Shown here in pieces: positions 24,711 through 25,292 of a DNA stretch of 39,640 nucleotides. How positions within the stretch are numbered: position 1 is the first letter of the stretch; every line of letters begins with the position of its first letter. The DNA is from Pseudomonadota bacterium (lineage in GTDB: Bacteria; Pseudomonadota; Alphaproteobacteria; UBA9655), in assembly GCA_018242065.1 (NCBI GenBank), contig JAFECQ010000001.1, forward strand, positions 1 through 39,640. Direction: 5' to 3'. Made by a program: the position numbers and the translations under genes. The notes beneath the pieces were generated by a model, which saw nothing but the letters and a program-made list of their open reading frames with translations, made no database searches and had not been told where the DNA came from.

Positions 24711-25164
24711 TTTACTTGAAGTCGTTATGGGAGGTGTCGTCCTCGTTGTCTTTACCTTTTGTGTCATTTTTGCGTATTCAACAAGTCAGTGGCAGCCTTC
24801 CAAAGGGTATGAAGTTATTGCAAAATTTTCGCGTGTTGACGGGGTTATGCGCGGTAGTGATGTGCGCCTTAGCGGTGTAAAGGTAGGTACGATTAAAGAT
24901 ATTCATCTTGATCCTACCACATATCTTGCTGTTGTTCAGATGACGCTTGAACCTCATGTCAGTCTTCCTAAAGATTCTTCAGCTGAAATTGCCAGCGAAG
25001 GGCTTTTAGGAGGAAAGTTTCTAGCCCTTGTGCCTGGTGGGGAAGATGATATTATTCCTCCTGGTGGTGAAATTATGCATACACAAGCTGCTGTAAGCTT
25101 AGAGTCTCTCATTGGGAAATTTATATTCAACGCGCAAGAGAAGAAAGACGAGAGTGTTCAGTAA
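24700..25164 (+). CDS. mlaD: MlaD-type MCE protein, outer-membrane lipid asymmetry transport
   Basis: MlaD is the inner-membrane-anchored, periplasmic MCE subunit of the Mla phospholipid transporter. The 154-residue protein has one N-terminal membrane helix (VVMGGVVLVVFTFCVIFAY) and a complete MCE core: FSRVDGVMRGSDVRLSGVKVGTI, then SAEIASEGLLGGKFLALVPGG. The ATP-binding and permease partners are not in the window. The start overlaps the end of the NDUFA12-like gene. The last codons and stop lie in the left arm of an imperfect palindrome, so the C-terminal tail may be newly acquired. Confidence 0.93.
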   Translation: MKTNLLEVVMGGVVLVVFTFCVIFAYSTSQWQPSKGYEVIAKFSRVDGVMRGSDVRLSGVKVGTIKDIHLDPTTYLAVVQMTLEPHVSLPKDSSAEIASEGLLGGKFLALVPGGEDDIIPPGGEIMHTQAAVSLESLIGKFIFNAQEKKDESVQ

Positions 25165-25292
25165 GCAGTGTTCAGTGTTCGGAACTTTTGTTGAGAGGTT
25201 TGAGGTTCTAACGCTTCTTCAAACAACTTTAAAACTTATGTCTTTGTTTCTTTTCCTCCTTCTGAATACTGGTTACTGTGCACTGAATACTG
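25152..25292. repeat. Imperfect palindromic element spanning mlaD end and DUF2155 start
   Basis: The 29-bp arms at 25152-25180 and 25264-25292 are inverted copies matching at 20 of 29 positions, and each arm is itself built from the motif CAGTGTTC or CAGTATTC repeated. The left arm contains the final codons and stop of mlaD; the right arm encodes part of the DUF2155 signal peptide (LNTGYCALNTV). The layout recalls Rickettsia palindromic elements that insert into genes while keeping reading frames open, though I cannot link it to a known family. Confidence 0.6.

Follow-up and report, generated by a model that had tools for sequence, protein, structure and literature searches.

A dispersed heptamer-armed palindrome at an alphaproteobacterial mlaD/DUF2155 junction as a likely source of a signal-peptide-like N-terminus

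The junction between mlaD and the gene for a DUF2155 protein in a member of the alphaproteobacterial lineage UBA9655 carries a long palindrome that overlaps coding sequence on both sides, and this raises the question of where such a sequence came from and what it contributes to the genes that it touches. The window, meaning the whole stretch of 39,640 nucleotides that was analysed, is the entire contig C11 (JAFECQ010000001.1) of a 1.9-Mb genome in 45 contigs. Within it, mlaD (TIGR04430 profile match) occupies positions 24700-25164 of the forward strand, and the DUF2155 frame (PF09923 profile match), taken from stop to stop, occupies positions 25103-25777 of the same strand. We consider it likely that the palindrome is a copy of a dispersed, non-autonomous element of about 140 bp that carries a portable Sec-type signal peptide, and that this copy replaced the native DUF2155 signal and left the end of MlaD intact.

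The palindrome consists of inverted 31-nt arms at 25152-25182 and 25262-25292, separated by a 79-nt interior (25183-25261), all given on the forward strand. The arm units are degenerate heptamers, with four of the CAGTRYY type on the left and units of the RRYACTG type on the right. The left arm covers the final two sense codons of mlaD and its stop (GTT CAG TAA, with the stop at 25162-25164), and the right arm falls in the signal-peptide part of DUF2155, where it encodes LNTGYCALNT. The RNA fold of 25150-25300 is strong, at -48.5 kcal/mol (z = -4.94), a value that none of 200 shuffles equalled. A generic repeat finder run on the window overlooked the arm pair because the pairing is interrupted, and an Rfam search of the palindrome gave no match. 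The inverted arms that an initial annotation had placed across this junction are real, and the related copies that it suspected elsewhere in the genome were also found: the pattern CTGANNACTGANNACTG, allowing at most one mismatch, occurs 27 times in the genome, compared with 0 times for the same pattern reversed. What that annotation missed is that the interior belongs to the repeated element and is coding.

A longer four-unit pattern occurs in 13 of the 15 genomes of the genus and in 0 of 2 other genera of the family; beyond the family it was seen only in genome G028, where the control was noisier than the signal, for a total of 14 out of 39 genomes. Arms were surveyed in 60 stretches around listed matches together with the window locus, a sample that covers part of the existing copies. 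Among the matches listed, these stretches hold at least 74 heptamer clusters and 24 left-right pairs, in which a CAGT array is followed by an ACTG array, with an interior of 72-82 nt in 13 of the 24. Among the same listed matches, the inner flank pairs better than the outer for 78 of 105 arrays (mean -21.0 vs -13.5 kcal/mol); the remaining 27 pair no better with the inner flank, and many arrays are without a clear partner. A BLAST search of plasmids using a made-up heptamer array as query gave no match.

The interiors of the copies are homologous as well. When aligned with the traN/traF junction of one congener (G014), the window interior scores 57, where the best of 200 dinucleotide shuffles reaches 38 (z 8.4), and the interior fronting TraW in G007 matches a TraF interior of G010 with z 9.0. 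A hidden Markov model (HMM) of five traF interiors, with the arms and the window left out, has a single match in the window at 25186-25254 (expectation value, E, 2e-5, or 4e-4 over 847 kb of redundant loci), and it also matches an interior fronting TraW (E 5e-5). In an alignment of six copies the mean column identity is 76%, and the right-arm unit order is common to the window and the traF copies; the interiors closest to that of the window are those of the G011 and G014 traF genes. A sequence-only model, R1, was made from this alignment, with strong copies defined as those with E<1e-6. The window match to R1 (25153-25292, forward strand) arises by construction because one of the six rows comes from the window. 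Strong copies were found in 10 of the 15 genus genomes, and the window genome holds them at C11, C12:15589, C12:18185 and C12:23051. Under stricter filters, with which the genus member G005 gave none, a search of 289 genomes of the class (286 of them non-genus) at E<=1e-3 returned five genomes, of which the window genome and G009 belong to the genus and the other three are non-genus genomes with weak matches (about 20 bits). Judged by these sequence comparisons, the element is one copy of a dispersed palindromic family of about 140 bp that has a homologous interior and almost no members outside the genus. The candidate explanation that arms arose separately around native sequence was dropped because the interiors proved homologous.

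The element also carries a reading frame. Of 17 copies in the window orientation, 15 have a frame that crosses the entire element without a stop and runs on into the gene downstream; the two exceptions, both TraW copies from G014, are interrupted by a single stop in the best frame. The remaining two forward frames contain 2-7 stops in most copies (one copy has 1 in one frame). The signal-peptide-like N-terminus of DUF2155 that the element encodes (25169-25300, forward strand) is homologous to the N-termini of TraF and TraW, as in the aligned peptides of the window (CSVFGTFVERFEVLTLLQTTLKLMSLFLFLLLNTGYCALNTVLYA), G003 TraF (ASVFRKFVERGESLRLLPVPLKLFITLPFFFLSTEHYALSTAFF) and G007 TraW (SPVVRDFNETPQALRSLIVSLKPVFFLVTFLSTDHWILSTALA); in the single BLASTP comparison of the window peptide with G003 TraF, 21 of 49 positions are identical (E 1e-10). 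An HMM built from eight TraF peptides only places the DUF2155 frame first among 1156 window segments (E 4.9e-8, with the next at 0.068), and among 5695 segments of 28 TraW and 30 MlaD loci the window (2.4e-7) and G007 TraW (1e-6) lead, with the next at 0.01. Composition-keeping block shuffles score at most 17.8 bits, compared with 32.4 for the window, and 0 of 2000 reach the window score; other DUF2155 open reading frames (ORFs) score at most 3.1 bits, compared with 29.7 for the window (14 ORFs given including the window, 12 listed). A genus-wide peptide model, with the window among its rows, gives 11 matches below 1e-10 in 7 genomes, namely nine TraF, one TraW and one DUF2155. PF13728 (TraF) was matched by 8 of 8 proteins tested and TIGR02743 (TraW) by 2 of 2; the ninth TraF locus, G003:C26, was left out of the Pfam test and has a junction nearly identical to that of the Pfam-tested G006:C76. 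The encoded peptide is about 45 residues long, with a basic region, a hydrophobic core and a small-residue end. Among the copies, the features that seem to be kept are those that a Sec signal peptide requires, namely a frame without stops, basic residues and a hydrophobic core, whereas there is no strong conservation of the RNA stem or of the exact peptide.

These controls bear on a very improbable explanation, in which heptamer arrays arise independently at gene junctions and the signal peptides are alike through shared hydrophobicity only. Single-arm arrays exist, and palindromes of other units stand at comparable sites (mlaD/DUF2155 in G005; TraW in G013 and G014); however, the dinucleotide and block-shuffle controls score far lower, as do DUF2155 orthologues with their own signal peptides, and the right-arm unit order is shared. 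The predominance of TraF among the strong peptide matches, together with the proximity of the window interior to the G011 and G014 traF interiors, would also suit a single illegitimate recombination that fused the 5' part of a conjugative traF gene to DUF2155, with no mobile element and with incidental heptamers. We regard this as rather unlikely, given that the same interior also fronts TraW, is found reversed at TraV-like and TraH/TraG sites, and lies in copies bounded by inverted arms.

If the window copy belongs to a dispersed family, the same junction in relatives should indicate what stood there before. Among loci with record titles, those nearest by MlaD belong to metagenome-assembled genomes of uncultured Alphaproteobacteria (e.g., GWC2_42_16), with 79-83% MlaD identity for the top eight. 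At the mlaD/DUF2155 junction, neither 14 congeners nor one other genus of the family has the sequence of the window as such, and this sequence was not seen at the site in distant relatives. In the nearest four congeners (G003, G006, G010 and G011), which are without the palindrome, MlaD likewise ends V-Q-stop, and the DUF2155 frames start within the MlaD end with a signal peptide that is four residues shorter. The left arm therefore overlaps the MlaD end rather than clearly supplying it, and the claim that an arm provided the mlaD stop and last codons, so that the element fed coding sequence into two genes, is not supported: the contribution is to DUF2155, and MlaD was probably not extended by the element, its end having been left as before. 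Similarly, the suggestion that an arm gives part of a signal peptide was correct in that the right arm lies in the DUF2155 signal region, but it is the whole element of about 140 bp that codes, not one arm. The window junction shows replacement and not simple insertion, and on this comparison the native DUF2155 signal peptide is replaced wholesale by a copy of the element. The DUF2155 frame is open from 25103, and the candidate starts GTG 25154, GTG 25175 and ATG 25238 are all in frame; our guess is GTG 25154, which overlaps the end of mlaD. Heptamer-like short traces (TGATCAG, TAATCAG) occur at the mlaD stop in several congeners, where an older copy may once have stood.

Other arrays and palindromes were observed at this and other junctions. 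The mlaD/DUF2155 junction of G005 (L048) has an octamer-like palindrome, and palindromes of other units also occur at lepB/traW of L209 (G014:C10) and L215 (G013:C44); their octamer-like units are GCAGTGTA and GCAATACT, the palindromes run into the signal-peptide region, and they apparently represent separate element families at the same spots. In G001 (L047), heptamer arms at the mlaD/DUF2155 junction surround a repeat of the GTCATTGCGAG type (palindrome GTCATTGCGAGC...GCAATGACG), such that two repeat families are nested. The TraW locus L158 (G001:C18, near 15065-15095) has a left heptamer arm only, after the lepB stop, and the array contains a GTG that is a possible TraW start (MFRRN...). 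In L148 (G000:C30, 871-901) a heptamer array starts at the stop of tsf (PF00889) or beside it, and in L147 (G000:C21, 1266-1393) one does so at or beside the stop of a gene that we take from its sequence to be rplL; a position of the latter copy between rplJ and rplL was rejected, since it follows rplL. Heptamer palindromes at L203 (G002:C9, 57152-57780) and L180 (G009:C149, 53711-53999) lie beside what are presumably 5S rRNA and tRNA genes. Separately, tandem repeats of 192 bp (64-residue units) occur within ORFs downstream of DUF2155, at 26644-27158 and 28091-28821 of the window.

Further copies stand in the opposite orientation. Those at a G000 gap between TraH and a gene that we assume to be TraG, and those preceding TraV-like lipoproteins, are matched by R1 in antisense to the gene (best E 3e-16 and 1e-15). 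The TraV label is likewise our assumption, made from a motif and from position beside a TrbI/TraB-like gene; a family search gave no match. In this orientation the element contributes a purine-rich run, an ATG and a hydrophobic segment that closes with a lipobox-like LSGC or LTGC. The occurrence of copies at different genes and in both orientations thus indicates dispersal. It can be tentatively proposed, as an idea that we would not yet favor, that the MITE-like palindrome (MITE, miniature inverted-repeat transposable element) is a portable export signal in which one strand provides a Sec peptide and the other a ribosome site, a start and a lipoprotein signal, so that a copy lying ahead of an exported protein could replace the targeting sequence whichever way it faced, with conjugative elements as carriers.

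Orientation also bears on whether the pairing itself is under selection, as a regulatory mRNA hairpin whose stem encloses the DUF2155 start region and couples its translation to mlaD. The strong fold would be expected of such a hairpin, and G-U pairs outnumber A-C mismatches in the mRNA orientation (36 vs 22, with 15 co-directional of 24 pairs), a bias that is suggestive only. However, 0 of 21 stem pairs changed on both sides in six homologous copies, so selection on RNA structure is unsupported by covariation; pairing in the six copies is no better than with randomly dealt 3' letters, the traF copy of G010 pairs poorly (score 20), and copies occur in both orientations relative to genes. Hence a selected hairpin seems quite unlikely.

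Returning to the dispersed element as a source of signal peptides, its mechanism may be pictured as follows. Inverted arms of iterated degenerate heptamers would surround a conserved pyrimidine-rich interior, one strand of which would supply a stop-free frame for an N-terminus of about 45 residues working as a portable Sec-type signal peptide; copies located at the beginning of unrelated exported-protein genes (traF, traW, DUF2155), all in that one frame, would each serve as such, translation presumably starting in the left arm. In the window, a copy would have replaced the native DUF2155 signal peptide with the MlaD end untouched. Movement may have occurred through transposition in trans or through recombination between heptamer arms at different genes, and we consider the two routes as likely as each other. 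As in MITEs, terminal inverted repeats are present, in the form of the inverted heptamer arms. It should be noted that several observations weigh against this picture. No target duplication or transposase was identified, and there were no clean empty sites for comparison. Interior-only links between the two orientation sets (z 5.1-6.4) are below the best links within sets, and the TraF-only interior HMM failed to find the opposite-orientation copies. The nine TraF loci among the 11 strong peptide matches are in many cases likely inherited and not independent. Codon-position differences are nearly flat among copies, and purifying selection on the peptide is therefore unsupported; that the peptide would direct export is a prediction from its residues, and the DUF2155 start region has no clear ribosome site to fix the start.

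The origin of signal peptides is hard to trace because they diverge fast. Here, homologous signal-peptide-like sequences are traceable between unrelated genes via a dispersed DNA element, which offers a concrete way for targeting signals to be exchanged, one that can be tested with orthologues lacking the element as controls. Stray DNA thus appears able to remodel the N-terminal part of a protein. Protein-coding palindromes have been published before, as has one MITE-derived signal peptide, and the present case extends the former to another alphaproteobacterial group; in the open-licence literature, no report was found of these heptamer palindromes, of their letters, or of one element giving signal peptides to several gene families.

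Among known systems, repetitive extragenic palindromic (REP) sequences and their paired form, REPINs, are short palindromes dispersed between genes and mobilised by REP-associated tyrosine transposases (RAYTs). A search for PF01797 (Y1_Tnp) gave 0 matches in the window genome, and the family is present in 7 of the 15 genus genomes without tracking the element (G003 and G010 have strong copies without it), so mobilisation by RAYTs was dropped; the present element also differs in its longer coding interior. The TAACTGA heptamers of Beggiatoaceae, Cyanobacteria and Bacteroidetes (MacGregor 2015) are direct repeats with one inverted case in 170 sets (PMC4679880). They resemble the present arms in that their 7-nt units, of the CTGANNA kind, lie at gene junctions and in some cases cover stop codons (PMC4679880), but theirs is one fixed unit, whereas here the units are degenerate, the arms inverted and the coding interior conserved; TAACTGA itself does not occur in the element, whose arrangement is inverted and not one of exact direct repeats. 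For RU-2/YPAL of Yersinia (Delihas 2007), one example is reported, whereas the present element heads genes of three families across several species, and orthologues without it exist. The element also resembles the Rickettsia palindromic elements (RPEs), reported in Wolbachia too, which are described as 105-146 bp palindromes joined in frame to genes unrelated to one another (PMC2229807), or as being about 150 bp long with conserved peptides (PMC10969869). The present element, at 140 bp, is a long stem-loop palindrome of comparable size (fold z -4.94), and its open frame likewise continues into unrelated genes (DUF2155, TraF, TraW) and encodes a conserved peptide. Compared with those descriptions, it differs in that its arms are iterated heptamers and in that its copies are N-terminal, with a putative signal region replacing the native one, whereas RPEs are described as neutral inserts. 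The RPE-like idea of the initial annotation thus holds in kind: a palindrome with genomic relatives sits in coding sequence without breaking it.
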